The position numbers and the translations under genes were made by a program. From Aradus depressus (Eukaryota; Arthropoda; Insecta; Hemiptera; Aradidae), in NCBI GenBank assembly GCA_963662175.1, contig OY759222.1:17184222-17248221 (forward strand): 64,000 nt of DNA, written 5' to 3'. Shown one piece after another: positions 3,030 through 54,493 of the stretch. Every line of letters begins with the position of its first letter. The stretch's first letter is position 1. The notes below the pieces were generated by a model, which searched no databases, was not told the DNA's origin, and saw only the letters and a program-made list of their open reading frames with translations.

Positions 3030-3185
3030 TATCTCACACATTGGGACCTGATGATGGGACGTAAGAACGTCCCGAAACATAGTTGGGATAAAGACACATC
3101 CGAAGAGTTTTTTTTGAAAAATAGTTATTTTAATTTTTATTAAATTGAAAAATGTGTCTACTTATTATAAATGTATCTATGTATT
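3030..3185 (+). mobile_element. Hammerhead-bearing element, partial (copy A)
   Basis: The core at 3048-3084 is followed by GTTGGGATAAAGACACATCC and an AT-rich segment ending ATGTGTCTACTTATTATAA. The same segment is found inverted at 46795-46920, so it is a repeat family. Left boundary and TSD are not determined. Confidence 0.55.
3048..3084 (+). ncRNA. Hammerhead-ribozyme-like core A
   Basis: CTGATGA (3048-3054), one extra T, a perfect 7-bp stem II (3056-3062 with 3067-3073, loop AAGA), GAAAC (3074-3078), then ATAGTT, giving a two-pair stem III AC/GU closed by ATA. Flanking stem I pairing is weak in cis. Confidence 0.55.
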
Positions 3186-3199
3186 AATTTTTTTTTTTT

Positions 3200-3456
3200 A
3201 GGCAGTTATTAGAGTTATTATGTTAAGCCTCTTCCTTAACCCCGCCTTTCCTCTTGGTCGATTTAGCTGAACAACGACAGGTGTCGTCGTTAGAGAGTTT
3301 CTGGATTCACATATACAATTTCTTGTCGATACATTCATTCTATCGGAAGTTATCGTGTTCCCAGTCAGACACACACAAAAAATTAAATTCCGTTGAAAAT
3401 CAACATAGAATTTTTGACCTTTTACATAAATTCCCCTATACTTCGTATAATATATA
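3200..3456 (+). repeat. CGE repeat, 3' part
   Basis: Begins inside GCAGTTATTAGAG and carries the GATACATTCATTCTATCGG hairpin module. Ends with CCCCTATACTTCGTATA, then a TA repeat. Confidence 0.7.
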
Positions 3457-3830
3457 TATATATAATAACTTTGATTCTGTAGACGTTCTTTTCTACACTT
3501 CCTCCCGTCCTGGAACTCTTGTATTTTATTTTATTTCTGGTGAGTTTCAAAACGACATAAATCCAAAGTTAGTTTCAAAACCAGATATATCCTGAATATT
3601 TTATAAATAAATACAATCTCAGAGTTGAAATTTAAGGATGTGTATCCTCTACTTTATACTAATGTACAGGTGATTTCATGAATTTGTATCATTTCATCCA
3701 CATGAAATATAAAGTGTTTTTTTTTTTTTTTTCTAGAAAAAATAAGAAGTATGAATGTTGCTGGTTTTTGAATCTAAACGACTATATCTTGTATTATCTT
3801 ATTTTCAAAATAAAATATCATGAAACTTAC

Positions 3831-3924
3831 TTTTCAAACCACTTTCACAGAGATGTTCAAGCAACATACTTCCAAGAAGGACATATACAACTCTTGGAAA
3901 CTGATTATCAGGCATGCTTATAAT
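3831..3924 (-). CDS. POT/SLC15-like peptide transporter, TM1 exon
   Basis: Acceptor TTTCAG precedes 3924 and donor GTAAGT follows 3831. The 94-nt frame (31 codons plus 1 nt) reads IISMPDNQFPRVVYVLLG then SMLLEHLCESGLK. It aligns without gaps to the YPxxVxFIIxxEFCERFxFYGxR block that opens POT-family transporters and continues in phase into exon 2732-2591. The ExxER motif that carries proton coupling in canonical members reads MxxEH here, so this is a divergent member or a changed mechanism. That reading rests on alignment by eye. A residual alternative is that the gene is a decaying paralogue. Confidence 0.75.
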
Positions 3925-4049
3925 CTGAAATATACCTATTGTATAAAAAATAAGCTCAAGATATTTTATATGTAATGTATAATATTTTTTTATTTGTGAA
4001 ATTAGGGTTAAAAAGTAACTCCAATTTAGAGAGAGAAAAAAAATATATA

Positions 4050-4458
4050 CAGTAGAACTTCGATTAACTGTGTTTGCGATTAACCGTGGTCTGTAAGTAG
4101 TAAGTATAGGTTCCTAGAAACTTGCGAGGCTGATTCAGAGTACGATGACAATTATGGCAGTTTTGACGCTAAAGAAGAAAACATTCAGACAAGTCAAGCA
4201 ATGGAAGCAGTTGATGTCCTCCTCAACTTCCGCGAACAAGAAAATTTTGACTTCCATGAATTTGAAAAAAAATAGAACTGAAGTAAGGAAAATCGTTAAT
4301 AGAAGGATTACTTTATATTTCAAGTCTTGATAACGTTATAACATGATAATGTACACACATATGTAATTCGTTAAATAAAAAATATCTCGATTAACCGTGG
4401 TTTTCATTTATCCGTGTGACCTCCCCCCCCATTAGCCCGGATAATCGAGGTTCTACTA
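4050..4458 (+). mobile_element. pogo/Tigger-like DNA transposon remnant
   Basis: Termini AGTAGAACTTCGATTAA and, inverted, AGTAGAACCTCGATTAT are flanked by TA at 4048-4049 and 4459-4460. The interior reads ADSEYDDNYGSFDAKEEN and AMEAVDVLLNFREQ, then a stop near 4275, resembling the acidic C-terminal end of jerky/Tigger-type transposases. At 409 bp it is an internally deleted copy, lacking the DDE core. Confidence 0.75.
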
Positions 4459-4482
4459 TATATAAAACAAAAAATAGTCGTG

Positions 4483-4597
4483 ATACTTAACATTTTTGCA
4501 GAGATATTGTGAAACACTTGATAAAAATATATATTATATATTATTTGTGAAATAGACAATATTTTTTAAAAACATACGTTTTCTTTATTTTTAAAAA
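4483..4597 (+). repeat. Terminal segment of the hammerhead-associated element
   Basis: GATACTTAACATTTTTGCAG, AGATATTGTGAAACACTTGA and GTGAAATAGACAATATT occur in the same order as at the right end of insertion 7633-8368 (inverted). No ribozyme core is seen in this piece. Confidence 0.5.
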
Positions 4598-4599
4598 AT

Positions 4600-4825
4600 A
4601 GTCGGTGAATCAACATCTATATACTTCCCTAGCAATAATTAATTAAGTTTTCGGTGTCCCTTCAAAGCCAATCGACAATTCGGACAGAAACTCAATATCT
4701 GACATACATCTGGCTGAAAATTAGTAGGTGTCGTCCTTAGAGAGTGTTGAATTTACATACGCTCGTGTCAATACATTAGTGTCAATACATTACAATGGCA
4801 GTTATTCAAGTTGAAACACAAAACC
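4600..4825 (+). repeat. CGE repeat, 5' end
   Basis: The 5' signature GTCGGTGAATCA, then TACTTCCC and TAATTAATTAAGTTTTCG, continues through GGTGTCGTCCTTAGAGAG to two TCAATACATTA modules. Confidence 0.65.
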
Positions 4826-5514
4826 CTGCTAGAGTTTGAAAATATCACATCATCTTAATTATCAAACGTCATGATAAGTTATAAAGCCCCATAATAAGAT
4901 GGACAATCTCGTAAATACAAAAAGATAAAATAAAATAAAGAAATTAATAAATATATACACATATGTATGTACATTTTATTCGATGTTTATTATAAGTAAC
5001 CATTTTAAAGTAGGTACATTTTAGGTTAATAAAGTTCTGTTGAAGTTTTTGGCATTTTTAACTATTTAACACAGAATAAAACTAAACGTATTAAATTAAT
5101 AATCAAGAGTATTATCTTAATACATAAACCATATACAAACACGTAGGACACAACAGCTCATCGACACCGATCTAAACTCGTAGTTGACTTGTACGCATGC
5201 GCTACGCATCCCCCTCCATAGCGTTTCATGTTTGTCTTTTTATGTCGAGGTATTTCGATTTACTAGTTTCGCTAAAGAAGTGCACTTCAAGAAATGTGTT
5301 GTACCAAACGTTCAGCAATTAGGATCAACAAAACAGTGCAAGGCTCTGTTAGGTTCTCTAATTATGAGGTTTTAAAATAACAAAAAATATCGCACATTTT
5401 AACACTTAAAATAACTGTTAAAATTAATTGTAGAATTGCTAAATAACAAGAAAAAAACATGTCATTGTATCTTTTCAACAATGACATACCTAACCTACTT
5501 TCAGTTTTTTTTTT
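4826..5514. other. AT-rich, unassigned
   Basis: The block 5150-5350 is more GC-rich (CATGCGCTACGCATCCCCC) but gives no convincing exon. Confidence 0.35.
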
Positions 5515-5846
5515 TTTGTGGCCTTAGCTTTTCGCCATAGCCAATTTATTCAATATTAAATTTACACCTTTGCATTCACCGACCCTGAAAACTGCACAAT
5601 ACTACCATATATGTCAGTGTTGTTTGATGCCAATAATGTGGTGTAGCAAAAAGGCTGTGTTACCAATTTCTCTACAGTGGATAACATTGTTAAACTTTCA
5701 ATTCGATATTTGCTACAACTCATAATCAAGTGTTCCAGAGTCTCGACCTCGTCACAATGCCTACACTTGGAGGTTTCGGTCAGACCTATTCTGTGCAGAT
5801 ACCATCCACAAATACCTTGATTAGCTCTCAGTCGGCAAATTGACTT
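5515..5846 (-). mobile_element. Non-LTR retrotransposon 3' fragment
   Basis: The minus strand from 5845 reads CRLRANQGICGWYLHRIGL, then SKCRHCDEVETLEHLIMSC. This is the CCHC-like C-terminal end that follows the RT/RNase H region in many LINEs (CxxC...H...C). Upstream domains are absent. Confidence 0.75.
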
Positions 5847-5849
5847 TCA

Positions 5850-6769
5850 GTTAGATACAAACTATCACTATTTATTATTGGACATCAATTATTTATTATT
5901 TTTTTATTATTCGATTTTGGGTTGTATGAGATTTTCAGGTAATACATTAATTTTTATGCAGCTATGCATCTCCCAATTTCAAATTATCGACTTAAACCAT
6001 AATAAATAAATAAAACAAACTGGATTTGAACCACATAAATATTGTCTATTCTACAAGAAATTTGTAGAAATATTTTCTGAGTGCGAATCATACATATAGT
6101 AACATCAGGTAGGTAAGAAGGGTTTGAATTTTCAACTAGGAAATCCCCGTTTCTAGAGATTTATGTTAGGAATTTCTTTGATTTGAAATATTTTTTATCT
6201 TTAAAACAAAAACAAAAAAAAACATTATAGCTAAACAGGTTACTTCATAGTTTAGAACAACAATAAATAAAGCCGCTAAAAATAACATTTGTATGAATAA
6301 ACAAATTTATTCTAACTAAACCAGTTCTGTCCAAGTAGTGTGATGGTTATTTTTATTACATATATCATTAATTGTAGTCAATATATATTATCATTATTTG
6401 ATTTTTATCTTTATTTTGTTATAATTTTAATTTATATCATCATTATTATTCATTTAGTTATTTTAAAGATATGAAAAACTTCTGATTTTAATTTTATTAA
6501 TGTTCTCATGCTATCAATAATAATTTCATCGTTAAATGATCATCAAAAAGAACATTCACGCATATAAATAAGTTTATCTTGTTAGTATGTAATAATTTTG
6601 AGATTTACTACGGTTATTGACAACAACAAAAAAAAAAGGGAAGAAATTATTTCAGACCAAAGAAATTGCTAACTTTAAGACACTGGGATTTCCTGGTTGA
6701 ATGTTCAACCCTTACCTACCTGAAGTACCTATGTGTATGATTCGAACTCAGTGAACATATCTAGTTCAT
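5850..6769. other. AT-rich, unassigned
   Basis: Contains one more piece of the hammerhead-associated family (AATATTGTCTATTCTACAAG at 6039-6058, followed by AAATTTGTAGAAATATTTTC). GGTAAGAAGGGTTTGAATT at 6112-6130 recurs inverted near 6705. No gene seen. Confidence 0.35.
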
Positions 6770-6958
6770 AACTAAACCTGACGATATGGTAATTCGAAAA
6801 TCGGTAGTTTATGTACATATTTCTTGTGGAATAGACAATATTAAAAAAATAATAATAAGTTTTATTTATTTATTATAAGTTTCCACAATATCTCAATCTT
6901 AGGGTTTAAATTATAATAATGTTAAACGTTTCGGAAGATACCTCCCATCCTCAGTCAT

Positions 6959-6960
<2 letters not shown>
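6770..6960. mobile_element. Two opposed pieces of the hammerhead-associated element
   Basis: The plus strand has a degenerate core (CTGACGA at 6778, GAAAA at 6796) followed by GTGGAATAGACAATATT. The minus strand has core E at 6954-6925 followed by AGATATTGTGGAAAC. The pieces converge on about 100 AT-rich bases. Confidence 0.5.
6925..6954 (-). ncRNA. Hammerhead-ribozyme-like core E
   Basis: CTGAGGA (6954-6948), extra T, stem II GGGAG/CUUCC (6946-6942 with 6937-6933), GAAAC, GTT. Stem III is the palindrome ACGT. Stem I is weak. Confidence 0.45.

Positions 6961-6993
<33 letters not shown>
6961..6993. repeat. (TA)n microsatellite
   Basis: Uninterrupted alternating TA of about 33 bases. Confidence 0.9.
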
Positions 6994-6996
<3 letters not shown>

Positions 6997-7632
6997 TGGG
7001 CTAGTGCTTTGCACCTAGGGACCTAAGCATCCAATGCTCTTTTCACTTCCCAGGAAGCACTGGGCTTCCACCTTACCGTTTACACTACCAATAATAAGTC
7101 CTTCATGAAGGACCCGGTCTCCCAGTTTTTTTATTGAATCTGAAAATGCTCCCGTAGTCCAATCTTCTTTTATGATCACATCTTCACCAAAAATTAGGGA
7201 TCTTGTCAGAGCATATGCCCAGGAAGTGTGCCACCGTCTCGTCTTCTCCACATCTGTCACTGTGTGTCTATTGAACGGACCGTGTCCTGTGAGAACTCCA
7301 GTCAGTTGCCAAAGCTCGTTCCTTTTGAAGTTCAGGATCACATCCTTCAACACCTTGGACTCCCCTCCCAGGAACATCTTCGACTGTCTACGTCTGGTTA
7401 TTTCTCTCCATGACTAGTCCAAAAGGTCTCTCTAGTCTAGTTTTTAATCAGGGTTCAGTATACCTCTCGAGATATTCCTAGTACTGTTTCTGGCTCGATG
7501 AAGGGCTTACATGAACCTTCCTTGGCTAGTCGGTCTGCCTCCTCGTTTCCCTGAATCCCCGAGTGGTCGGGGAGCCATTGTCCCACATTCCCTTACTAGC
7601 TTTCTGATTTCAGCGCTGGCAAGTGCTGCTTA

Positions 7633-8368: not shown

Positions 8369-8533
8369 AAGTGCTGCTTATCTATCTAAGATTTTCACCT
8401 TCTCCACGTCACTATTCATTACCTCTCGTCTAGGTGCGCAATATTTTATATCAGACATTTCCTTAGTAACTATAAAATTATCAATTCTTGATGATTTTGT
8501 ACTTACTTTTTAGTCCATTTAATGAGACCTGTA

Positions 8534-8563
8534 TTGAGGACGGGAGGTGGCTCTCGAAACGTT
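8534..8563 (+). ncRNA. Hammerhead-ribozyme-like core G (C3 changed)
   Basis: TTGAGGA (first C replaced by T), extra C, stem II GGGAG/CUCUC (8542-8546 with 8551-8555, one G-U pair, loop GTGG), GAAAC, GTT. Same subfamily as core E but with a different stem II strand, and pairing is retained. The C3 change should abolish activity. Confidence 0.4.
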
Positions 8564-8675
8564 TAACGTTATTATAATTCAAGCCGATGACTTACACTAC
8601 ATTGGTTGATATATAGCTGCATACAAATACAAATAAGAGATTATTTATAATTTAAATAAAATAAAATATATTTAC

Positions 8676-8768: not shown

Positions 8769-8819
8769 CTAAAAATTCATTGTTTTGTTCTAATTAATTA
8801 TAATAAAGTTCAAATAAAA

Positions 8820-9713: not shown

Positions 9714-10984
9714 CAGCGGATCCAGAAAAGTTTTTGGGGCGGTCATAAGAAATGTTGAAAAAGCTGGAGTATGTTTGTGTGTGTGAATGAGTGGGTGCTT
9801 CAAGAAACTGTAATTTAGGCCTATTTTACATGTTTTTTTAATTTTGCATACACAGCTATAACAATAGAAAATGTCAATTTTTAATACAAAATAGCAATTT
9901 ATGCATACTACATAATTATGAATCATTCAGTAACACTTTATATAAATATTTTAAAAAAGAGAAAATAATTCTAAAGCTGAAGTTCTAAAAAAACTGTAGG
10001 TTGGGTACGTTTCTGCATAGTATATGTACATGATTTGTAGGTTTGAATATTCAATATATGTTATTATTTCGATAGATAAATTTTTCTTTTCTGGACCAAC
10101 CTAGTTAGTATTATGTATATTGCAGGATAAAATATATAACTATTAACAATATTTATTACTTACCATAACGTAACGGTTTGCTAGTACGGCTCGTAGTTGG
10201 TTTATAATAAATAATGTTGTGCAATGTTATAATGCACGTTCAACCGAAAACTAATACTAAAAAATAACATTACACCGTTGTGAAATTTAAATCTTTATAT
10301 TTACACTTTTGAAAAATGTACTTTACAACTTCCCTATTTTAGGAAGCACTTTTGAAAAAATTTATAATTTTTAGGTTAGGTTAGGTTTTATGACTCATGC
10401 CCAGGCTTTAACTACGAGGTCATATCGCCTACTACCAGAGCGCTCTTTCGTTTCTCTGGTGGACATGAGCCCGACTTTACAGTGGGACTCCTAAATTTTG
10501 ACTACACTAAATTTTTATTCACCTAGGGCAGGGGTCTTTAACGAGTATCTGATATCGTACAGGCTCGGGACCATCGCTTAACGTCCCATCCGAAGGACGG
10601 CGTACTTAAGTTTATTTAATCGGTTATAATTTTTATTTCTAGAATGTGTAATAAGTAATTATCATTGTATACTTTCGAAAATCGTAAATTATGTATTCTA
10701 CTATGCATTTGTAAATTAGTGTTTTAGAGTGGCTATAATTTTTCTTAAATATTTTTTTTTTACAATATTGGTTCTAGATAAAACCAATATTGGTTTCAAT
10801 ACTAGATTGAAATTGATATCATTACACATTTTTAGCCAATATGGGGATTGAATTTCTAATATTGGACCAACTTAGCGCTTTAAATTTCTACCGGGATGCT
10901 TTTTTCTTATAATTTAAACATTGGTACTTGATTTTGAAAGGGGGGGGGGCTTGCCCCAATGGCTCCTGTCTGGATCCGCGCATG
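9714..10984. mobile_element. hAT-like non-autonomous element
   Basis: CAGCGGATCCAGA opens the left end and TCTGGATCCGCGCATG closes the right end as inverted repeats. G runs lie just inside both (TTGGGGCGG; GGGGGGGGGGCTTGCCCC). Both flanks share CATAT but an exact 8-bp TSD is not clear. SINE 10374-10623 is nested inside. No transposase frame remains. Confidence 0.6.
10374..10623 (-). mobile_element. tRNA-headed SINE, 5'-truncated, TSD present
   Basis: Starts with a TTAGG-type tail (GGTTAGGTTAGG) and ends at CTTAAGTTTATTTAATCGG, without the tRNA head. Flanked by TTATAATTTTTA at 10362-10373 and 10624-10635. Confidence 0.85.
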
Positions 10985-13183: not shown

Positions 13184-14675
13184 TTATATGAATGGTTTCA
13201 TGGTGGGAGGACTGGACTTTCTGCGGACTTTGTCATTCTCCAAGTTGGGGGCTATGGGAGATGAGAACGACTTCCTGTCAGGTCGACTGTTGACGACCGG
13301 CACCACGCCGCTGTTGAACAGTTCAACCGTCTTGGCCACATTGGACAGAGGCTGCTGTTTCAACTCCATGGGGGTCATGTAGTACGGCTTTTTGGGTTTT
13401 TTCTCCTCTTCTTGAGAGGACTTGCTCGTCTCTGAAGAGAAGGACTCCGACCGAAGGTATTTGGGAGGTGGTGCTTCCACTCCAAGCCTCAATGGTTCAG
13501 CTTCTTTGTTTTCAATCTCTATTTCTTCTTTTACATCACACTCTTCTATATGGATCGTTGGCAGCCCTGTACTCTTCCTTGGCATCCTTTTCTTCGACTT
13601 GTGTCTGCTGATTCTGATGTCAGGGATGAAGAGTCTGAGGGCGTTAGGCCCTGTGGGGAATCTTGATGCAATTTTGTCATCCATGTCTGAACTGCTCATG
13701 GTCACTTCCAACGATGTTTTGGTGACAACTTCTTGGTGCTTGTTGTACGCGGAAACTAGCTGTGCTACAGAGAACCTTGGTTCGTCCTCTTCCGTTGACT
13801 CCCCTCCTAGCCTTCTCAAATCCTCTTCCGAACTAGTTACTCCCTCCGTCAGCGACATAGAGTCTGAACTTGCTGGTGATTGTGGGTGATTTTCTTCCTC
13901 TGTTTCTTTAAAAACCTCTTCCGCATCTTTCAATTCCAATCGTCTATTAATATTATTATTCATAACATCATTACTTTCTTCTTTATTTTCTGGTACAGAG
14001 TTTCTGAAATTATCTTTATTTTCTTGAAGGTTGGATTCTAAATGTCTAATATTTTCTTTATTGTCATCGCGGTTTCCTCCAACAGATGCACTGCTAAGTC
14101 TTCTAATAATGTCCATAACTGGTTCATCGTCTTCTTTGCCTGCGGTGTTTTCTGCATCAGAGATACTCATAACAGACGAATTGACAGACTCATCTCCTTT
14201 CACATTGATAATACTAGGAAATGCTTTTGTCTTTTCGTCGACTCCTTCTTGTAGGTTGAGCACACTTCTATAAAGGTTGAGAACTTCTTGCGACTTGGAG
14301 AAACTCTTGAGTCCGTACAACTTCTCCCTAGATCGGCTCATGACAGACTCCTTCATGAGGGCTCGTTCCCTCGACTTGGAGACGAGGGACATCTGACTCT
14401 CGCACATTCTCCGGGTCCTATGATACTGCTGCAGAAGGGTTGTCTTCCTCAGACTTTTCTCTGAGTTGCGGGACATCACTTTCTCAAATAGGGCTTCCCT
14501 CGATTTGGACAGATAGTTGCGCAGATTTTGGTTGGACGGCTGTTGACATGAGGAACATCCGACTCGTCGGTTCTGTTCTGTCTTGGCGGCTTGACGACGA
14601 CTGCTCAGACGAGAAGTTTTGCGATTCTTGGCCAACCAGGGATGTTTTAGGCATTCCTTGGCAGTCATCCGCTCA
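13184..14675 (-). CDS. Drak: STK17/DRAK-type kinase, terminal exon (end of kinase domain and long tail)
   Basis: The acceptor TTCTAG precedes 14675. The exon completes the Ser codon AG|T of exon 18596-18417 and reads SERMTAKECLKHPWL, subdomain XI of DAPK-family kinases, then about 480 residues of tail to a TAA at 13186-13184. The tail is low complexity and probably disordered. It has a basic Ser/Arg block with recurring S-(K/R)-S-x-E motifs (first ~130 residues), an acidic Ser/Glu/Asn block, and a basic C-terminus with several RKS/RRKS-type possible phosphosites. Vertebrate STK17A/B are near 370-415 aa, so most of the extra length is this tail. The antisense open frames across this exon are shadows. 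Confidence 0.93.
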
Positions 14676-14750
14676 CTAGAACAAAGAAACGAAAAAAATT
14701 AATGAAACGAACGAACATTTTCGCTACAAGATATACACATATACACAGAC

Positions 14751-15471: not shown

Positions 15472-15790
15472 CTTCGGTGAATCACCGGCAATGTACTTCC
15501 CCGGAACGAATTATAATTATAATTATTCATAATTATTAACTTTTCGTGAACCCCCCTTCCCTCCAACCGATGTTGCTGAAATTTGACAGGTTATCTCCTC
15601 ATTGGGTTATGAAATCACATATGAAATTTAGTGTCGATACTTTCATTACAACCGCAGTTATTAAAGTTTTTGAGTTAATGAGAACTGACATTATTGCAGA
15701 GATATTGTGAAATAATTCAAATGAACTTAAAAGAAATAAAACTTGTTTATTTATGATATTGTCTAATTTCACCAACTATATTTACATGGG

Positions 15791-15819
15791 AGTACTTTCG
15801 GTATTTCTACCATCCTCAG
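15791..15819 (-). ncRNA. Hammerhead-ribozyme-like core F1
   Basis: CTGAGGA, extra T, stem II GGUA/UACC closed by a GAAA tetraloop, GAAA, then the self-complementary AGTACT as stem III. Confidence 0.5.
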
Positions 15820-15864
15820 CCAAAAGCATAAGAGATACGACTGTCTTATCTCTTATGCTTTTGA

Positions 15865-15893
15865 CTGAGGATGGTAGAAATACCGAAAGTACT
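15865..15893 (+). ncRNA. Hammerhead-ribozyme-like core F2
   Basis: Mirror copy of F1 in the other palindrome arm: CTGAGGA 15865-15871, stem II 15873-15876 with 15881-15884, GAAA 15885-15888, AGTACT. Confidence 0.5.
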
Positions 15894-16192
15894 CCCATGT
15901 AAATATAGTTGGTGAAATTAGACAATATCATAAATAAACAAGTTTTATTTCTTTTAAGTTCATTTTTGAGTTAAGCCCCTAATTCCCCCTCCACTTTGGC
16001 CGATTTGACTGAAAATCAATAGGTGTCGTCCTTAGAGGGTTTTCGATTCACATATACAATTTTGTGACGATATATTCATTCTATCGGGAGTTATCGTGTT
16101 GGAAAACATAAAATTCAGTTGAAAACTCCGCATCGAATTTTTGACAGATTAAGTAACTTCCCCTATACTTCGTATAGCTGAAGAAGTTAAAA

Positions 16193-25260: not shown

Positions 25261-25720
25261 TTTTTAATATCGTATTTATTTTTTTTATATATTTTATTTT
25301 ATTTATTATATTATATGACAATAATTTCATTGGCTGTATGGTGCAAAAATATTTTATGTTACTATTATGTACAGACTTATTGTATTTATTAGAATAAATG
25401 GTTTTTGCATGTTGAGAGAATGAGTGAACCTGGCTAACCCCACCCCTTAGAGCTATGCCAGTTGTCTTCTAACCGCTGTGCTGTGTGGGTGGGGTAAGTT
25501 ATTTTTATAATTTTATTTTCTTACTCTATACCCTGATGCTTTAAGAATTATTTATACTTTTTACTATTTGTATATTTTATTATTCTATGATAGATGAACC
25601 ACTGATGATGACGCTGTTGCGTCGAAAACTAGTTCTGTTGTAAAATAAAACAGTTGGAAGACAACGTCTTTTATTTCTATTAGAACTCTCGTCCCACAAC
25701 ATCTTACTATCACAAATGAA
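25261..25720 (+). mobile_element. Hammerhead-bearing insertion with 10-bp TSD
   Basis: 460 bp between CATCTATGTA at 25251-25260 and 25721-25730, inside a CGE copy. It includes core B and an inverted pair AGTTGTCTTCTAAC (25462) / GTTGGAAGACAAC (25654). No open frame of note. Confidence 0.75.
25602..25635 (+). ncRNA. Hammerhead-ribozyme-like core B
   Basis: CTGATGA (25602-25608), extra T, perfect stem II GACGC/GCGTC (25610-25614 with 25619-25623, loop TGTT), GAAA, and the 8-nt palindrome AACTAGTT (25627-25634) as stem III, then C as the possible cleavage base. Confidence 0.55.
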
Positions 25721-34800: not shown

Positions 34801-34820
34801 CTATTCACGAACTTCTTTTA

Positions 34821-37800
34821 TACAAACTGAAACAGGGATATACCCGACTATTATTTATACAAACTGAAACAGGGATATACCCGACTATTATTTATACAAA
34901 CTGAAACAGGGATATACCCGACTATTATTTATACAAACTGAAACAGGGATATACCCGACTATTATTTATACAAACTGAAACAGGGATATACCCGACCATT
35001 ATTTATACAAACTGAAACAGGGATATACCCGACTATTATTTATACAAACTGAAACAGGGATATACCCGACTATTATTTATACAAACTGAAACAGGGATAT
35101 ACCCGACTATTATTTATACAAACTGAAACAGGGATATACCCGACTATTATTTATACAAACTGAAACAGGGATATACCCGACTATTATTTATACAAACTGA
35201 AACAGGGATATACCCGACCATTATTTATACAAACTGAAACAGGGATATACCCGACTATTATTTATACAAACTGAAACAGGGATATACCCGACTATTATTT
35301 ATACAAACTGAAACAGGGATATACCCGACTATTATTTATACAAACTGAAACAGGGATATACCCGACTATTATTTATACAAACTGAAACAGGGATATACCC
35401 GACTATTATTTATACAAACTGAAACAGGGATATACCCGACTATTATTTATACAAACTGAAACAGGGATATACCCGACTATTATTTATACAAACTGAAACA
35501 GGGATATACCCGACTATTATTTATACAAACTGAAACAGGGATATACCCGACTATTATTTATACAAACTGAAACAGGGATATACCCGACTATTATTTATAC
35601 AAACTGAAACAGGGATATACCCGACTATTATTTATACAAACTGAAACAGGGATATACCCGACTATTATTTATACAAACTGAAACAGGGATATACCCGACC
35701 ATTATTTATACAAACTGAAACAGGGATATACCCGACTATTATTTATACAAACTGAAACAGGGATATACCCGACTATTATTTATACAAACTGAAACAGGGA
35801 TATACCCGACTATTATTTATACAAACTGAAACAGGGATATACCCGACTATTATTTATACAAACTGAAACAGGGATATACCCGACTATTATTTATACAAAC
35901 TGAAACAGGGATATACCCGACTATTATTTATACAAACTGAAACAGGGATATACCCGACTATTATTTATACAAACTGAAACAGGGATATACCCGACTATTA
36001 TTTATACAAACTGAAACAGGGATATACCCGACTATTATTTATACAAACTGAAACAGGGATATACCCGACTATTATTTATACAAACTGAAACAGGGATATA
36101 CCCGACTATTATTTATACAAACTGAAACAGGGATATACCCGACTATTATTTATACAAACTGAAACAGGGATATACCCGACCATTATTTATACAAACTGAA
36201 ACAGGGATATACCCGACTATTATTTATACAAACTGAAACAGGGATATACCCGACTATTATTTATACAAACTGAAACAGGGATATACCCGACTATTATTTA
36301 TACAAACTGAAACAGGGATATACCCGACTATTATTTATACAAACTGAAACAGGGATATACCCGACTATTATTTATACAAACTGAAACAGGGATATACCCG
36401 ACTATTATTTATACAAACTGAAACAGGGATATACCCGACTATTATTTATACAAACAGAAACAGGGATATACCCGACTATTATTTATACAAACTGAAACAG
36501 GGATATACCCGACTATTATTTATACAAACTGAAACAGGGATATACCCGACCATTATTTATACAAACTGAAACAGGGATATACCCGACTATTATTTATACA
36601 AACTGAAACAGGGATATACCCGACTATTATTTATACAAACTGAAACAGGGATATACCCGACTATTATTTATACAAACTGAAACAGGGATATACCCGACTA
36701 TTATTTATACAAACTGAAACAGGGATATACCCGACTATTATTTATACAAACTGAAACAGGGATATACCCGACCATTATTTATACAAACTGAAACAGGGAT
36801 ATACCCGACTATTATTTATACAAACTGAAACAGGGATATACCCGACTATTATTTATACAAACTGAAACAGGGATATACCCGACTATTATTTATACAAACT
36901 GAAACAGGGATATACCCGACTATTATTTATACAAACTGAAACAGGGATATACCCGACTATTATTTATACAAACTGAAACAGGGATATACCCGACCATTAT
37001 TTATACAAACTGAAACAGGGATATACCCGACTATTATTTATACAAACTGAAACAGGGATATACCCGACTATTATTTATACAAACTGAAACAGGGATATAC
37101 CCGACTATTATTTATACAAACTGAAACAGGGATATACCCGACTATTATTTATACAAACTGAAACAGGGATATACCCGACTATTATTTATACAAACTGAAA
37201 CAGGGATATACCCGACTATTATTTATACAAACTGAAACAGGGATATACCCGACTATTATTTATACAAACTGAAACAGGGATATACCCGACTATTATTTAT
37301 ACAAACTGAAACAGGGATATACCCGACTATTATTTATACAAACTGAAACAGGGATATACCCGACTATTATTTATACAAACTGAAACAGGGATATACCCGA
37401 CCATTATTTATACAAACTGAAACAGGGATATACCCGACTATTATTTATACAAACTGAAACAGGGATATACCCGACTATTATTTATACAAACTGAAACAGG
37501 GATATACCCGACTATTATTTATACAAACTGAAACAGGGGTATACCCGACTATTATTTATACAAACTGAAACAGGGGTATACCCGACTATTATTTATACAA
37601 ACTGAAACAGGGATATACCCGACTATTATTTATACAAACTGAAACAGAGATATACCCGACTATTATTTATACAAACTGAAACAGGGATATACCCGACTAT
37701 TATTTATACAAACTGAAACAGGGATATACCCGACTATTATTTATACAAACTGAAACAGGGATATACCCGACTATTATTTATACAAACTGAAACAGGGATA

Positions 37801-38044
37801 TACCCGACCATTATTTATACAAACTGAAACAGGGATATACCCGACCATTATTTATACAAACTGAAACAGGGATATACCCGACTATTATTTATACAAACTG
37901 AAACAGGGATATACCCGACTATTATTTATACAAACTGAAACAGGGATATACCCGACTATTATTTATACAAACTGAAACAGGGATATACCCGACTATTATT
38001 TATACAAACTGAAACAGGGATATACCCGACTATTATTTATACAA
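34821..38044. repeat. 37-bp minisatellite, 87 units
   Basis: The unit starts TACAAACTGAAACAGGGATA and ends TACCCGACTATTATTTA. The first unit starts at 34821 and the truncated last one at 38040, exactly 87x37 bases apart. Units are almost identical. Known variants are T>C in GAC(T/C)ATT at 34997, 35219, 35700, 36181, 36551, 36773, 36995, 37402, 37809 and 37846, CAAACAGAAAC near 36452, two GGGGTATA units near 37540-37580, and CAGAGA near 37646. 37 is not a multiple of 3, and each frame meets TGA within about three units, so it is not coding. Confidence 0.98.
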
Positions 38045-38642
38045 ATGAACTGCATCATAATTACATACTCAAAGTGATAAACATGGCAAATCCAAGACTT
38101 CCCAAGGACCTAGCTAAAGAGGTTATTAAAAGGAATGTGCTCTGGTTCGACGGATAAATATAGTCTGTTAATAACATCGAGATATGGAACACACAGTTAT
38201 CAAATATACGGAATAGTTTAAAAGAGCATTATCGCAATCAGTTCAGGAGGAAATTAAAACTCAGACCGGTACTTGCTAGGTAGGGAACTGGAGTTCCGCG
38301 ATTCAGTTATTAGTTACTTACAGAGTGACCTACCATTGTCAAGTATTAGATTTATAATTAAACCTAGAGGTGAACTGTTGCATCTAAGCTATACACCTAT
38401 CAATCAATATACCTCCGAAGATATGGACTTTGTATGCCCAATGTGTTACAGCCCCTGTAAAGAAGATCTATATCACTTCCTCATTACCTGCTCCAAATAT
38501 GATGATTTAAAAAATAAAATATTTAAAAACAACGTAGATACTTCATTTATGTTGGAATTATTAAATGGTAAAAATTGGCAGCTACTGGTAAATTATTGCA
38601 AAAAGGCTTACGATTTCAGAAACTGTGAATTAAATAAATAAA
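38045..38642 (+). mobile_element. LINE 3' end abutting the minisatellite
   Basis: Directly after the last unit one frame reads ELHHNYILKVINMANPRL and KEVIKRNVLWFDG, then stops. A shifted frame (38273-38641) reads FVCPMCYSPCKEDLYHFLIT, the C-terminal CxxC...H...C zinc-like motif of LINE ORF2, ending AAATAAATAAATAG. Frameshift and stops make it a pseudogene. Confidence 0.7.
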
Positions 38643-39759: not shown

Positions 39760-40335
39760 TGACAATAAATATGACGATAGAAGATAGGGACCAGGTCGCA
39801 TCTTGTAAAGGTTTAGAAACTGGCTTAGCTTCTTCCATAAGAGTGCAGAACTCTGTAGCATAGAGATTTGGAAAGATGTGCAACGTCTAAAGGCTGGAAG
39901 ATGACAATAGAATATAGTGACTACTTCGCATCTTGTAGAAGAATAAAAACTTGCTTCGCTTCCAACAGAAGAGCACAGAAATCTATAGCACAGAGATTTG
40001 GAAAGATGTCCAACGTCTAAAGGCTGGAAGATGACAATAGAAGATAGGGACAACTTCACATCTTGTAGAAGAATTAAAACTTGCTTCGCTTCTTCCATAA
40101 GAGACGTGGCTACTTCGCATCTTGTAGAAGAATAAAAACTTGCTTCGCTTCCAACAGAAGAGCACAGAAATCTATAGCACAGAGATTTGGAAAGATGTCC
40201 AACGTCTAAAGGCTGGAAGATGACAATAGAAGATAGGGACAACTTCACATCTTGTAGAAGAATTAAAACTTGCTTCGCTTCTTCCATAAGAGTGCAGAAC
40301 TCATACGTAGCACAGAGACTTAAAAAGAGTTGCAA
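39760..40335. repeat. Degenerate ~130-bp tandem repeat
   Basis: About four units built from GACAATAGAAGATAGGGAC, CATCTTGTAGAAGAAT, AAACTTGCTTCGCTTC, GCACAGAGATTTGGAAAGAT and CAACGTCTAAAGGCTGGAAG. Units start near 39775, 39904, 40033 and 40220, and one carries an extra partial unit of about 57 bases. A 213-codon minus-strand frame across it is a by-product of the periodicity. Confidence 0.85.
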
Positions 40336-44189: not shown

Positions 44190-44440
44190 TATTACTCCTA
44201 TTTTGTTAATTAAGGTTATCATTTAGAAATAGTTTGTTTATAATTTTATATATCGAACTGGATCCATCGATTACTGAACACAAACTCACAACACCTTCAC
44301 CACAAACATCCACTCAAGTCATTAGAAGGCCCTGAAGAAGGAAATAAATAGTTTTCGAAACGTTGGCCAAATTTTGAATTTTTAATTTACACTACAAAAC
44401 CTCGAATTCCTTCTACATTGAAAATATACTGTCCACTCTA
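44190..44440 (+). mobile_element. Hammerhead-bearing element (copy D), borders not fixed
   Basis: Non-CGE segment between CGE pieces 44064-44180 and 44445-44530, with core D in the middle. Confidence 0.5.
44328..44368 (+). ncRNA. Hammerhead-ribozyme-like core D
   Basis: GGCC (44328-44331), CTGAAGA, extra A, stem II GGAAA/UUUUC (44340-44344 with 44352-44356), GAAAC, GTT, GGCC (44365-44368). The two GGCC strands form a perfect 4-bp stem I. Stem III is the palindrome ACGT. The best stem I in the window. Confidence 0.6.
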
Positions 44441-45932: not shown

Positions 45933-46794
45933 TAAAAGGTTGTAGTGAAATCACTTTTGTTGTATAGTTTTTCGTTCCATACAATGGTACAATTTTAGTA
46001 GGTTCCTAAAATTGTATTCCAATTTCTTAATATAATTCCACAAATAATCTTTTTACAATAATTCTACTTTTGTCTTGTTAAATATTTTTTAACCATATTT
46101 CAAATAAGAAGCAGGCTGTGAGAAAAAGAATAGATTTAACAGAAGAATCCCGCATAATAACGGTTATATTTCACGTCTTGTATTTGGATGACAACCATTA
46201 GTTCTCATCTGTTAGTACTTTGTAGCAGTCATCATGAGATGAGGTCTTAAGAGGCTTTCTTGGCCATCAGTCACATCTTAAGAAACCTCTTCAACATTTC
46301 TCTTCATTCTCTTTTTTCTTTTTTTTTTTTTTTTGTTATTTTTCCTACATATTTCCAACTGTATATAAGTATCCATTCTTCTTAAAGACGGGGATCCACC
46401 AAAAAGATAAACTGAGGAATGTTAAGTTTAAAAATATATTTGATGTGATCATTACAGGACTATCTTATACCAACTACTTCATTACAGATCACTCTCTTTC
46501 TCTCATTCAATTCATTTCATACTACTTCTACTTTCTTTCTGAGCGTGATTCTGAGAGTGACTCTTTATAATAATAATAAATTTATTTCCGTTAAACAAAT
46601 ACATGATAATAGGATACGTCAAAAGAATTTATACAATAAGATAGCTTATAAATTAGATTTATAACTACTTGAGTCTAACACATCTATGATTAGTAGTAAT
46701 AACAAAACTATTAAAAAAAGTAAAATTAAATTAATAAAAACTGAACAAATAAATACTTAAAAATATATGAGTACATAAACAAAATTAATACGAT
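45933..46794. other. Unassigned intronic
   Basis: T- and A-rich. TAAGAGGCTTTCTTGG (46247) and CTTAAGAAACCTCTTCAA (46276) nearly pair. No element is named. Confidence 0.35.
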
Positions 46795-46920
46795 ACGTTT
46801 ATAATAAGTAGACACATTTTTCAATTAAATAAAAATTAAGATAACTTTTTTTCAAAAAAAAAAAAAAATCTTCAGAAGTGTTTTTATCCCAACGATGTTT
46901 CGGGACGTTCTTACATATAA
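46795..46920 (-). repeat. Hammerhead-associated element, core truncated
   Basis: The minus strand reads GTAAGAACGTCCCGAAACAT then CGTTGGGATAAAAACAC and ATGTGTCTACTTATTAT, matching 3061-3180. The CTGATGA half is missing. Confidence 0.55.
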
Positions 46921-49268: not shown

Positions 49269-49391
49269 AATGAATTTCGAGATATTTTAATATTCAATAT
49301 GTATATGGCATATACGATATATGGCACATACTCATATCTCATTGGCATGAAGCTCTGATTTAGGACCCTTGTACATCTAACGTCAACTCAC

Positions 49392-49530: not shown

Positions 49531-49589
49531 CTGTAAACAATATAAACACATCTTTAGTAGATCCATGGATCAGTAGTCATCTCTCATAA

Positions 49590-50089
49590 TTTTAAATAAT
49601 ATGACCGCTCGCAAAACAAAATTTCAGTCAGGATCAAAACTGGCTTCTACTAATACTCAGTAAGGGCAATTACCGATAGAAAGGTACTATTATAAATATA
49701 TTAAATTAAAGACATAAATATTTTTAAAAAGCAATTTTTTTTTCAAGTCAATATTATTTCAAAGTTACGATAAATTTAACATTTGATCTATATATTAGTA
49801 AATAAGTCTGTAAATAGTATATTGCAACCGGTTAATAATAAGTTATTGATTTAACTTAAACCGATTAATAAGTTGTTTTTGATTTTACCTTAACTGATTA
49901 ATAATAAATTCTTTTTGAATTTTCTTTAACCGTTTAATTTTATTTTTATTTTTATTAATTCTTTATTTTGAATATTTACAATCGGTAATAAAACCGTAAG
50001 TAAATTTTATGATACAATTAAAAAAATTAAATAAGAATAAAAAAAGAAGAAAATAATAATAAATAAAATTTTAAAATATATATTTATAT
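49590..50089. other. AT-rich intronic stretch
   Basis: Contains a loose three-fold repeat of a TTAACCG(A/G)TTAATAA phrase (49829-49945). Confidence 0.4.
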
Positions 50090-50278
50090 TTTTTCGTGTC
50101 GATAAATTCATTTTTTTGGGAGTTATTGTGTTTACAGAGAGAGGGTTTTTTTCTTTTTGATTATTGGAGTCAGGAAGTGGGGAAAGCGGTTTTACGTCGA
50201 AAACTCAATTTCGAATTTTTGACCGATTAAATAACTTCCTCTATACTTCGTATAACTGAGGAAGTACAAATTCAGTTC
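50090..50278 (+). repeat. CGE repeat, 3' end
   Basis: TTTTCGTGTCGATAAATTC to CTATACTTCGTATAACTGAG. Confidence 0.7.
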
Positions 50279-50347
50279 GAAAGATCAATGCATTAGGTTT
50301 AAAAAAGAAATAAAGGGATTATAAGAGCTGCATATATATAATACAAA

Positions 50348-50686
50348 GGGCGCCGGTAACTCAGTGGTATGCGTGCTTGTCTTCTGAGCTCAAGAACGAG
50401 GGTTCGAAACCCAACCGAGGCCCTTAGTTTATTTTATCTGGGAGGTAAAATAAACTTAAGCACGCCGTCCTTCGGATGGGACGTTAAGCGATGGTCCCGA
50501 GCCTGTACGATGTCAGGTACTCGTTAAATACCCCTATTCTAGGTGAATAAAAATTTAGCGTAGGAAAAATTTAGGACTCCCGGAGTAGAGTCGGGCTCAT
50601 GTCCACCAACGTGATGAAAGAGCGCTCTGGTAGTAGGCGATATGCCCTCGTAGTTAAAGCTCGGGCATGAGTCATAAAACCTAACC
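50348..50686 (+). mobile_element. tRNA-headed SINE, full length
   Basis: Head GGCGCCGGTAACTCAGTGG, box B GGTTCGAAACCC, complete body, CCTAACC tail. Flanked by TATATAATA words. It ends about 90 bases from the kinase exon at 50776. Confidence 0.92.
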
Positions 50687-50775
50687 TATATAATAGAACT
50701 TCATTAATAATCTCCTTTAGACATCCCAAACATGATAAATTTATTTTGTTAATATTTCGTAAATGGTTTACTTAC

Positions 50776-50988
50776 AACTCCATGACGATGATGAACTCTG
50801 ATGGTGTCTGGAAAACATCATGAAGACGTATGATGCGGGGTGACGGAGAGCAGAGCGACAGAAGTGCAATTTCGTGATGAATCTCTTTGGTGGCATCTTC
50901 ACCATAACGTAGTCTAGAAGAGAATTTGGCCGCCAGGGTCTCTCCAGACTCCAGGCTCCGACAACGGCGTACTGACGCGAACATACCC
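50776..50988 (-). CDS. Drak: STK17/DRAK-type kinase, N-lobe exon
   Basis: 213 nt between acceptor TTTTCAG and donor GTAAGT. It encodes (R)GMFASVRRCRSLESGETLAAKF and HHEIALLSLCSPSPRII through EFIIVME. Visible parts are the second half of the Gly-rich loop, the ATP-binding Lys (AAKF), the alpha-C Glu (HHE) and the strands leading to the hinge. It starts with the third base of a split codon, so the upstream exon must end two bases into a codon. The whole kinase domain from here to 14675 is uninterrupted. Confidence 0.93.
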
Positions 50989-51071
50989 CTGAAAACAACA
51001 ACATCAATATTAGAACGATCTTTAATAAGGAGGAAAATTCCTCTAAAAAAGAGAAAATATGTTTTTTAAAA

Positions 51072-51435
51072 AAACTTCGTCGGTGAATCACTGGTGATGT
51101 ATTTCCCCAGAACGAATTAATCAATTAACTTTTCGCTTCCTCTCCAAAACCAGTCGACAGTTTGGACTAATAATCAATATTTCACTTAAACAGGGGCTTC
51201 TTAATTCTCGTACTAAATTTCGTTTCGATACATTCATTCTATTGGGTGATACAGATACCATATTCACAGATACCCACACACAGACCAAAATGTGAGGGCT
51301 TCTAAATCCATATACTAAAAATTGTCTGTGTACTCGATAGAATGACTCAGGCTGTTGGAAAAAAATTCCGGTGAAAACTCCGCATTGAATTTTTGACCGA
51401 TTACATAACTTACTCTATACTTTGTGGAAGTAAAA
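51072..51435 (+). repeat. CGE repeat, short but with both ends
   Basis: CGTCGGTGAATCACTGG and TTTCCCCAGAACGAATTAAT at the 5' end. The 3' end is decayed (CTATACTTTGTGGAAGT). Confidence 0.75.
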
Positions 51436-51779
51436 ATACGAAGTATATTCTCATCTATAAGATGGAAAAATTGTGTTGTTTACTTCAAGAATGTATTGAC
51501 CCTGGATTTATTTATTATATATTTTATATAGTCCTTCAACCCTTCGCATCATCCGGAAACTACAACATTAATAAGGACATGGAGAAGATTATAATAAACC
51601 TCGGATCAGGAATAGTCTTCCTGTTTCGTGAGAAGTTTGACGTCCATGGCGCTGAAACCCAATCTTCTAACAAAACGTAGATGGGATTCTGTTTAAGGAA
51701 GTCATTTAATCTTAGGTACTTTTATAGAATTTATTCTCCACTTATTTAAACCCCCAGGTACATGAAGTTATAGGAATTC

Positions 51780-51965
51780 GAAATTGAGTTTTCATCGGAT
51801 TTTTATGTTTTCCGATGAAAAGAAAAATCTGTCTTTCCCTACATGAATAAAATAACTCCCGATGAGATGAAATTGAACCATGAAAATATGTGTATCCAAC
51901 AGACGCCCCAAGGACGACTAAAACTCAAATAACTGCCGATGTAATAAATGTATCGACAAGTTTAG
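51780..51965 (-). repeat. CGE repeat, partial
   Basis: AACTCCCGATGAGATGAAAT and ACTGCCGATGTAATAAATG, ending where the LINE at 51975 begins. Confidence 0.6.
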
Positions 51966-51974
51966 TATGAAAAA

Positions 51975-52590
51975 ACCAAAAAAAAAACATTTATTTGAAC
52001 CAGCAAGATACAATATGCTTTACACAAATATATAAAATAAATGGTTTAAAATAGGAAGTCCTGGTAGTCTTTGTTTGAGTCGCCTCCCAGGAGTAGGCGC
52101 TCCTAGACTGTAGTGTACAGCCCCAGAACAATGCACTAGGGCTTCGTGGTGGTTCTTCACTAGTTTCTCAATGTGAGCTGCAAAAAGAGGAACACTCAAT
52201 TCTTCGTGGATCTTGTGATTCCTGACAAACCAGGGTGCGTTTGTTGCTATTCGGAGTACCTTATTCTGAAATGTTTGTAGTCGTTTCATGTTAAGTGTTG
52301 CTGGTACCGATACAGACTGGACAGGCGTATGTTAGAAGTGGAAGTAGGAGTTTTTTGTACAGGAGAATGGTACATGTGTGTTTAAGTGGCCTGTTTCTGT
52401 TTATGAGAGGGTAGAGGGTGTTAAGTCGTGAATATGCTAGCTGTAATTTTCTGTTAATGTGTAGTTTCAATGTGAGTCGTGTATCCAAAAGTACTCCAAG
52501 ATAGCGCACACCCTGGTCCTTGGGGTTCCAGAGAATTGGGGAATTACTGACAAACATAAATGATGCACACACAGCTCATAACAATATTAT
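51975..52590 (-). mobile_element. Jockey-like LINE 3' end
   Basis: The minus strand reads KDQGVRYLGVLLDTRLTLKL, LLPLLTYACPVCIGTSN, then after a 1-nt shift MKRLQTFQNKVLRIATNAPW and VHYSLGAPTPG. This is the thumb and C-terminal region of a Jockey-clade RT, the same family as 21076-21600. Confidence 0.88.
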
Positions 52591-52694
52591 TATATTAAAA
52601 AGAAATACATTTTTATTTTTGCTATAAATGTTAATCTTTCAAAAATGTAGATATTTTTCGGGTTTAGGGGGGGGGGGGGGGGGATTCCATCCTG

Positions 52695-52870
52695 GGGAAT
52701 TTTGTCAGGGGGTTCTGTATTCACATATAAAATTTCGTGTCGATACATTCATTCTATCGGGAGTTAACGAGTTCACAAACACACGTACAGACACATTTTC
52801 AAATTTGTAATATGGAGGTCGGAAAGCATGAAATTCCATTGATAAGTCCGCATCGAATTTTTGACCGTCA
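52695..52870 (+). repeat. CGE repeat, partial
   Basis: GATACATTCATTCTATCGGG module, ACACACGTACAGACACATTTT, GCATCGAATTTTTGACCG. Preceded by a 13-G run (52670-52682). Confidence 0.7.
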
Positions 52871-53308
52871 GTAAAAAATCTAAACAACAAACAAGATAGA
52901 CAGAAGCTGAAGTGAATAAATTACTGCAAATTAATAAGAACACTGAGAGAAATAAATCATGTTCAGAGTTCTGATGGGGTATTAATCAATATTCGGAGAA
53001 TATTTAAATTTTTAAGTCTTTTTTGAAAAATAAAAATACAAAAAAACTGTTTCACATTATTAGAGCAAATCAATTTTAAAATATTATAAATGGCTACTGT
53101 TTTATCTTCACAATCGTGTTGTGAAAAATAAGAGAGTCAAAAAATCTATCGTTCACACCAGACAAACATGATGGAGTTCACACAAGCAGGACTTGTGGAC
53201 GTGGGTCTCTTTAAGGAATCAGTACCATTTTGAGATATATTTGTATTAATTTAAATTCATTTTGACTTCATATATTGGTAATTTTAAAAAATCTAATGCA
53301 TATTTGGA

Positions 53309-53571
53309 TAGTTATTGAGACGTATGCCTGGGCTTTAGCTATATGGTCATATCGCCTATTACCAGACTTCTTTTATTTATGGCTCTGGTGGACATGAGCC
53401 CGACTCTACTATGGGAGCCCTAACGAGTATCGGACATTGTACAGGCTCGGGACCATCGCTTAACCTCTCTTCTGAAGGAACATAGGTAAAAAACCTAAGG
53501 ACCTCGGCCGGCTTTCGAACCCGCGATCTTTAGCTCAGTAAGCAAGCACGCTACTTCTGAACCGGCCCCCT
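53309..53571 (-). mobile_element. tRNA-headed SINE, diverged
   Basis: CGTATGCCTGGGCTTTAGC through GTACAGGCTCGGGACCATCG to the head (CGAACCCGCGATCTTTAGC). Internal deletion. Confidence 0.82.
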
Positions 53572-53649
53572 GTAGATTTGAATATATAATGGATATGATA
53601 CAGTACTTTGTCCAGGAATGGATAGTGGGAAAATAGCAATGGTGTTGGT

Positions 53650-53775
53650 CACGAAATACGAATGACGGGAACCCTATTCTTGTAGATATCTTTCGACCTG
53701 ACTGGCCGACATAGGAAGCCCCACATTCGCAGGTAATTCGGTAGACCCCCCCTAAGGGGTGGAAACTTACTATGA
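53650..53775 (-). mobile_element. GIY-YIG endonuclease fragment, Penelope-like element
   Basis: The minus strand from 53752 reads GGVYRITCECGASYVGQSGR then KISTRI. The G-V-Y...C-x-C-G-x-x-Y-V-G-Q-x-G-R pattern is the GIY-YIG core as it occurs at the C-terminus of Penelope-like retroelements. The frame opens at HPLGG and loses similarity after about 28 residues. No RT sequence was recognised beside it. Confidence 0.75.
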
Positions 53776-54323
53776 TTGTATGATACCCGAACAGCTCATA
53801 AAGTACGGGACGTATGAAAAGTTAACACGCAAAAAATAAAAAAAAAATTTTCTCAGGCCGCCTTCCGCTGGTAGTTGAGAAGTCTTCCATAGTAGGAACA
53901 ACGATCGTGTCTTTATGGACTCCCCAGAAGGGAACTAGATCTTGACCATATGAAGCAATCCATAAACAACAAACAAGGGACCATATCCGGATCATATAAG
54001 GGCGGTCATATAAGGACCATTTCAAGAACATATGAGTACTTATATCAATGGTCAGTGAAATACCTTGTGGAATATTCATATCTTGTAACTCCATCTGCAT
54101 CATTAATTATATATATAAGAAAATATTAGACATAAACTTCTTAGCTCAAATAAATTGTAACAGTAATTCTAGATGTTGCGAACTGAATCATTTATAAGTT
54201 TAATATTTGTAACAACATTAAAGAGCTTCGGATGGGACATAGGCGTTGGTCCCGAGCTTGTGCGATGTCAGGTACTCGTTAAAGACCACTACCTTATGTG
54301 GATAAACCTAGGTAGGTAATATT

Positions 54324-54493
54324 CTGGGGGTATTGAGGGTCAGTCAATGATGAAAACACTATTCAAATGCCAACGTTTCGATATATTTCATATCATCATC
54401 AGGGCCTAACAAACATAGGGGAATCAAGAATACAAAATTATAATGAGTGATCGATTAAAATTTTTGAATTCTACAGTCGCTAGCAAACATCTA
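54324..54493 (-). mobile_element. 170-bp hammerhead-bearing insertion with 16-bp TSD
   Basis: Direct repeat CTAGGTAGGTAAT(A/G)TT at 54308-54323 and 54494-54509. The insert has no frame. Core C lies in the middle on the minus strand. Its flanks do not resemble the SINE, so this is a separate small mobile unit. Confidence 0.8.
54369..54406 (-). ncRNA. Hammerhead-ribozyme-like core C
   Basis: GGCC, CTGATGA (54402-54396), extra T, stem II GATAT/ATATC (54394-54390 with 54384-54380), GAAAC, GTT, GGC. GCC/GGC gives a 3-bp stem I. Stem III is ACGT. Confidence 0.6.

Follow-up and report, generated by a model that had tools for sequence, protein, structure and literature searches.

The stretch of DNA considered here, 64,000 nucleotides (nt) from the genome of the true bug Aradus depressus (contig C8, OY759222.1, positions 17184222-17248221, referred to below as the window), contains eight short sequences that resemble the core of the hammerhead ribozyme. 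An earlier note on this DNA had drawn attention to these sequences and had compared them with the small hammerheads, having a vestigial stem III, that are associated with Penelope-like elements (PLEs). The cores in the window, their copies in the genome sequence (697.7 Mb and 74 contigs were searched) and the reading frames found beside these copies are described here.

Hammerhead-like cores in the window

Direct inspection found a core at each of the eight positions that had been listed. A blind scan of both strands of the window for CTGANGA, 0 or 1 nt, a stem II of at least 4 bp, and GAAA returned 7 matches, each with exactly one extra base after CTGANGA and none without it. In 60 third-order Markov simulations the same descriptor gave a mean of 0.13 matches with 0 or 1 extra nucleotide and 0.03 with 1, and never more than 1 match. 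The eighth core, at 8534(+), has U instead of C3 and hence lies outside the CTGANGA descriptor; the other seven of the eight window cores have CUGANGA, stem II and GAAA. The presence of the cores and of one extra base after CUGANGA, both claimed in the earlier note, is thus borne out. Its title, however, spoke of seven cores, which is not the number found: eight positions were listed, and these collapse to six families, since 15819(-) and 15865(+) are the arms of one palindrome and 6954(-) and 8534(+) are homologous (84% identity over 51 bp, with the homology beginning at the core).

The core of the 54402 family occupies 54372..54402 on the minus strand and consists of CUGAUGA with an extra U, a stem II of GAUAUg/uAUAUC, GAA, and a stem III of ACGU, with the predicted cut after the U at 54372. 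Three pairs of stem I form between GCC (54403-54405) and GGC (54369-54371). This core lies in a short head-to-head PLE insertion on the minus strand (54318..54494), in which a pLTR (pseudo long terminal repeat) arm at 54318-54462, covering -60 to +84 relative to the core and matching the array unit described below at 94%, is joined to a piece of the tail in inverted orientation (54462-54494, +81 to +113).

On the plus strand, the core at 44332..44364 has CUGAAGA with an extra A, a stem II of GGAAA(U)/(G)UUUUC and a stem III of ACGU, with GGCC at 44328-44331 facing GGCC at 44365-44368 as stem I. The core at 25602..25635, also on the plus strand, has CUGAUGA with an extra U, a stem II of GACGC/GCGUC, the palindrome AACUAGUU as stem III, for which the family mostly has AACCGGUU, and a predicted cut after C; its stem I sets ACCA (25598-25601) against UGUU, which is UGGU in the copy at the genome locus L166.

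A palindrome of 247 bp at 15719..15965, with a self inverted match of 98%, is made up of two head-to-head arms. One holds the core at 15790..15819(-), with CUGAGGA and an extra U, a stem II of GGUA/UACC, a stem III of AGUACU, a predicted cut after C and a stem I of UGG/CCA. The other arm holds the same core at 15865..15894(+), where the first stem I pair is broken (A opposite C). Sub-threshold matches to microRNA families (mir-302, MIR6274) were also seen in this palindrome, probably merely from the long hairpin.

The core at 3048..3084(+) has CUGAUGA with an extra U and a 7-bp stem II of GGGACGU/ACGUCCC, followed by ACAUAGU. At 6925..6954(-) are CUGAGGA with an extra U, a stem II of GGGAG/CUUCC and a stem III of ACGU, and the degenerate relative at 8534..8563(+) has UUGAGGA with an extra C, GGGAG/CUCUC and ACGU. 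Two sites add to those listed in the earlier note: a relic core of the 25602 family at 1440..1466(+), in which stem II is broken, and a half-core at 46914(-), which belongs to a 5'-truncated copy of the 3048 family (46777..46914, minus strand) that has lost the 5' half of its core. The first three pairs of stem I all form at 44332, 54402 and 15819; two form at 25602, 6954, 8534 and 15865, and one at 3048.

A scan of the window with Rfam gave zero matches at the gathering level, so no canonical hammerhead by that score, and no hammerhead even to E=10. A search of the genome with RF00008 also gave no match, but since the control genomes were equally silent this negative carries no information.

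Genome copies and Penelope-like reading frames

All of the families for which patterns were searched are abundant in the genome. Reversed patterns served as controls, and the places listed are the first 100 for each pattern, on one or two contigs; the remarks on variants made below rest on these. The pattern of the 54402 family, CTGANGAT N{8,24} CGAAACGTT, has 1532 + 1545 exact matches (3077), as against 0 + 1 when reversed, with 430 against 0 for its GG-type subset. No reversed match was found for the 15819 family (8430 matches), the 25602 family (2055), the 44332 family (650) or the 3048 family (971, for a pattern of stem II and the 3' flank only in which the 5' core was not required). A looser scan of a 200-kb sample, made up of 20 stretches of 10 kb, two of which flank the window, returned 14 matches, with an extra base count of one in eight (including one with U3), none in three and two in three.

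On contig C1, the 54402 core occurs seven times consecutively, in steps of 3123 bp with one of 3132 bp. The array unit examined (L172) has an 841-amino-acid (aa) stop-free frame that matches the reverse transcriptase (RT) family RVT_1 (E 6.6e-6, 26.4 bits, cut-off 29.6) and GIY-YIG (2.2e-4, 21.9 bits, cut-off 22.6), both matches being slightly below Pfam's cut-off. The protein has 146 homologues and, among the 120 listed, the named ones are mostly from insects. The core stands just upstream of this RT and GIY-YIG frame, once in each tandem element.

The 25602 core has two copies in the same direction (+/+), 2970 bp apart, and the sequence read in the interval (L173, 1.2 kb) forms a single open frame of 400 aa that matches RVT_1 (3.4e-8) and, weakly, GIY-YIG (0.019). 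Tandem arrangement, among the places listed, is thus seven in a row for the 54402 family and two for the 25602 family. A 15819-type core at L141:8137(-) and a third PLE frame at 8369(+) are arranged head-to-head, 232 bp apart, and appear to share one element. Also on contig C1, from ~135 to 690 kb, the first eight head-to-head pairs of 15819-type cores recur every 65-77 kb (with one double interval) at a constant offset of 74 bp, a pattern that points to tandem duplication of a large segment close to the end of the contig.

A PLE frame was therefore linked to three of the six window families, 54402, 25602 and 15819. Pairwise identities between the three proteins are 28, 33 and 42%, and despite this the cores of all three families have CUGANGA+U and GAAA. 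The features that mark a PLE were found in these elements: an RT and a C-terminal GIY-YIG in one open reading frame (ORF), a tail signature and head-to-head pLTRs. In the window itself, Pfam had no match in six ORFs, and in 145 of the 157 stop-free pieces of at least 62 aa (12 were dropped) it matched neither RVT nor GIY-YIG; its matches there were to Pkinase and zf-RVT, with two further weak ones. When 121 PLE proteins were compared with the window by tblastn, there was one match of 25 residues, within 53672-53752(-).

The ends of copies of the 54402 family were placed on L172 using the window and 26 fetched loci; of the 30 that were fetched, L156, L169 and L170, which have no L172 match, and L144 were omitted. 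The downstream ends form two clusters, with 24 ends at 71-92 nt and 21 at 109-121 nt after C3; overlapping loci are counted repeatedly, and the ends at 71 belong to a divergent subfamily and mark alignment limits. The predicted cut is at 31, so the clusters lie ~40-61 or 78-90 nt past it, and not at the cut. The two clusters resemble the end of the body of a PLE and that of its tail (PMC11167929, PMC3846280), and the copy ends would be the points at which reverse transcription started.

Insertions of the 54402 family are for the most part head-to-head pairs, in which the arms are inverted and one arm has a tail of 30 nt. In all 13 of the head-to-head pairs counted (L142/143, L149, L150/151, L152/153, L154/155, L157/158, L159, L163, L164/165, L166/167, L168, L171 and 54318-54494 of the window), one end is near and the other far. 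Single arms (L145, L146, L147 and L148), the same-direction pair L161/L162, and L160/L161, which was ambiguous, were not counted. Head-to-head inverted pLTRs, with an optional 31-bp tail on one, have been described for the Penelope elements of Adineta vaga (excerpts of PMC3846280), and the copies described here are like them in both respects. These excerpts mention no hammerhead, and the one-near-one-far pattern seen in the pairs here sharpens the known trait of a tail that is optional on one inverted pLTR.

Stem pairing and the extra base

Stem I, which had no place in the earlier account, pairs above chance across seven families (54402, 44332, 25602 in its L166 copy, 15819, L128, 3048 and 6954). 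Of the first three pairs in each, 18 of 21 form, as compared with a permutation mean of 9.6, and this is reached by 24 of 5040 permutations. Using the window's own 25602 copy the count is 17 of 21 (48 of 5040 permutations), and in a five-family subset without the poorly pairing 3048 and 6954 it is 15 of 15.

The earlier claim that the stem II sequences differ and yet pair is upheld, since the stems of the various families are unlike in sequence and pair above chance: 28 of 28 pairs form, which 4 of 5040 permutations reach, with the pairing of stem II being itself a selection criterion. For 86 distinct genome cores at the listed places, the mean stem II is 3.44, as against 2.72 when their halves are recombined (maximum 3.10 of 500). 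The pattern used for this fixed T after CTGANGA and C before GAAA, and the part of the test that concerns 0 against 1 base is therefore biased.

Stem III is palindromic in seven of eight representatives, of which six are from the window or its families and two are fetched loci, the palindromes being ACGU, AGCU, AGUACU and AACCGGUU. The vestigial, palindromic stem III described previously is consequently found in these seven but not in the 3048 family, in which ACATAGT in the window and ACATCGT in most of the 100 places listed among the 971 matches are not palindromes. In the 25602 family, the window has AACTAGTT where most of the 100 listed among the 2055 matches have AACCGGTT. In folding, stems I and II form in the monomer of 44332 and stem III forms in the dimer of 25602.

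The extra base is U in most of the families described above and A in nearly all of the 100 listed places of the 44332 family, with C in one. When the T after CTGANGA was replaced with G, giving the canonical reading without an extra base, there were 40 CTGANGAG matches (reversed control 2), as against 3077. At least 4 bp of pairing were found with one base skipped in 16 of the 40 and without skipping in 11. By the longest run, no extra base was favoured in 26, one base in 11 and neither in 3, although the pattern forces a G...C end pair. Some canonical-looking cores exist in the genome, but they are rare.

It was considered whether the extra base might be explained by a start codon. In the 54402 family, translation from the AUG created by the extra U would reach a stop after two codons; the PLE frame, which has its first Met 149 nt past C3, is not opened by this AUG. 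The explanation is unsupported in the families checked.

Other sequence collections were also scanned. Among at least 120 stretches of viral contigs with a loose pattern, there were 10 loci with a core and a paired stem II, four of them identical in sequence. The three of these loci whose ORFs were listed look like phage or prophage DNA by eye. Two contigs that are phage-like by the same judgement, L110 and L111, have three hammerhead-like cores each, outside the long ORFs of the same strand, at ~4034, 3728 and 3340 (minus) in L110 and at ~2317, 1446 and 921 (plus-strand coordinates of minus matches) in L111. An extra U follows CUGANGA in five of these six. A stricter pattern gave 1 match in prokaryote genome contigs.

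Other features of the window include the longest open frame (13184-14698, minus strand), a long exon of a death-associated protein kinase-like gene with 71% identity to death-associated protein kinase 3 of Halyomorpha halys, which marks the host as a true bug. A satellite of 37 bp is present in 87 copies at 34817-38049 (99% matches), and overlapping tandem repeats of 130 and 189 bp at 39771-40292 overlap a 214-aa open frame. A dispersed repeat of ~250-360 bp, present at 10371-10617 and elsewhere, has several copies of ~90% identity in the 64 kb.

Alternative explanations and possible role

From the sequence comparisons, the cores are very probably minimal type I hammerhead ribozyme motifs in the pLTRs of several PLE lineages of this true bug. 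The Penelope-type interpretation offered previously is supported, as for three of the six families the same core stands beside a PLE RT frame in this genome and the 54402 copies have head-to-head arms. The kind matches one that is already known, the minimal PLE hammerheads, to which the lineages of this insect are an added member. Minimal PLE hammerheads without helix III, and their action as dimers, are already in print (excerpts of PMC7761336, PMC6466107, PMC6155905 and PMC7229834). According to the first two of these excerpts, they may act as dimers, for which a palindromic loop III and tandem copies are needed. The type I PLE hammerheads of Cervera & De la Pena (2014) and Lunse, Weinberg & Breaker (2017), as cited in other papers, share with the present cores the core itself, the vestigial palindromic stem III, the pLTR location, the tandem arrangement and the large copy number. 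Points of difference are the host, the presence of six families in one window and, possibly, the base that nearly all matches have inserted between A9 and stem II. A literature search for hammerhead ribozymes in hemipteran retrotransposons, judged by titles and the beginnings of abstracts, returned nothing on this topic.

The closest comparison is with PAc, the hammerhead of the Poseidon element of Anolis carolinensis (PMC11167929). This is likewise located at the junction of pLTR and ORF, with internal RT starts and a tail, and it is active with protein and inactive without. In the anole element the reading frame is reported to start where stem II starts; C3 and G8 precede the start codon, and the cut lies 26 bp further on (PMC11167929). 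From this layout PAc is inferred to have the same extra U. In the 54402 family, by contrast, the PLE frame is not opened by the AUG of the hammerhead and, in the 44332 family, A replaces the extra U.

Several observations weigh against the assignment to PLE hammerheads. The 44332, 3048 and 6954/8534 families are without an ORF link, and the first three stem I pairs are complete in only three of the eight window cores. The families of the stem II test were picked partly for pairing, although stems I and III alone were no criteria. At 3048, ACATAGT could form just 2 bp (AC/GU), and the difference between AACUAGUU and AACCGGUU may reflect CpG decay on both strands instead of compensation. Most single cores give no clean hammerhead when folded alone, and a transcript running through 15819/15865 would fold as a hairpin, given the near-perfect palindrome. 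Finally, in L144, which was omitted from the count of ends for this reason, homology stops at +31, no more than one base from the predicted cut, and gives way to unrelated sequence, but the search pattern ends there too.

Other explanations of the cores can be set against this evidence. Chance motif matches in AT-rich DNA, which find some encouragement in the ten viral-contig loci described above, are refuted by the counts (7 seen against 0.03 expected in the window, and 3077 against 1 in the genome control), leaving them a vanishingly small probability. It is highly improbable that the cores belong to retrozymes or other hammerhead satellites, these being non-autonomous repeats, short and arranged in tandem, which carry canonical type I hammerheads and form small circular RNAs. 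The order of the stems is indeed type I, as in the tandem repeats of metazoan retrozymes, and most window copies have no PLE frame nearby. However, in the excerpt of PMC7229834 the metazoan retrozymes are non-autonomous RNA circles of ~170-400 nt, from units without an ORF, and have canonical hammerheads with loop-loop contacts, whereas the tandem unit of the 54402 family is 3123 bp with an RT frame and the Rfam models are unmatched in the window.

A conserved hairpin that is not a ribozyme, but a protein-binding or RT-start signal that keeps CUGANGA...GAAA by coincidence, is quite unlikely. The cores lie within ~120 nt of the clustered ends, a PLE protein is thought to bind nearby, and the minimum anole template requires the first 172 nt of the ORF (PMC11167929). 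Yet the letters conserved to either side of stem II are those of the hammerhead core, followed by A15.1/U16.1 and H17, and stem I pairs above chance, while a binding hairpin would need neither stem I nor a palindrome. It is also unlikely that the cores are decayed, functionless relics that have hitch-hiked with pLTR sequence, no copy being an active ribozyme. Stem I is incomplete in five of the eight window cores, the copy ends are not clustered at the cut site, the anole element is inactive without protein, and its hammerhead mutants had no effect on insertion in vitro (PMC11167929). Against this, the core has been kept between PLE lineages of 28-42% protein identity while the stems change and still pair, an argument that applies to the elements and not to each window copy.

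If the cores are PLE hammerheads, a transcript of tandem units would bring two of them together, and the palindromic stem III could pair core to core. The dimer would then cut 3' to the U or C following stem III and yield unit-length RNA. Dimer action fits the palindromes, and the chances that such cleavage takes place in the animal are about even; by analogy with the anole element, help from protein is likely. Most of the window copies are probably dead by-products of insertion. As the start of reverse transcription seems to lie beyond the cut, a cut junction would not be able to template its own body, and cutting and copying would compete at the junction. The ribozyme might therefore separate the units of multimeric mRNA or end the cycle, rather than make insertion ends, a role favoured because RT seems to start beyond the cut, because the PAc mutants were without insertion effect in vitro, and because PAc needs protein.

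There is also a small chance, no better than unlikely, that the retrotransposition complex uses the palindromic stem III as its RNA-RNA dimer contact, with two templates, held core-to-core by one PLE protein dimer, serving both nicked target strands at once. This would explain the head-to-head insertions and the one-near-one-far starts in all of the 13 pairs. Cutting by the same dimer would end the cycle, and the constant base inserted between A9 and stem II would mark this protein-assisted form.

With the PLE hammerhead assignment, eight scattered motifs, all missed in the window by Rfam, become a defined system, in which one insect genome holds several PLE lineages and full units stand in a tandem array. 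The layout imposes a sharp constraint: if the clustered copy ends mark where RT begins, copying starts ~40-90 nt beyond the predicted cut and ought to be in competition with cutting at a junction.

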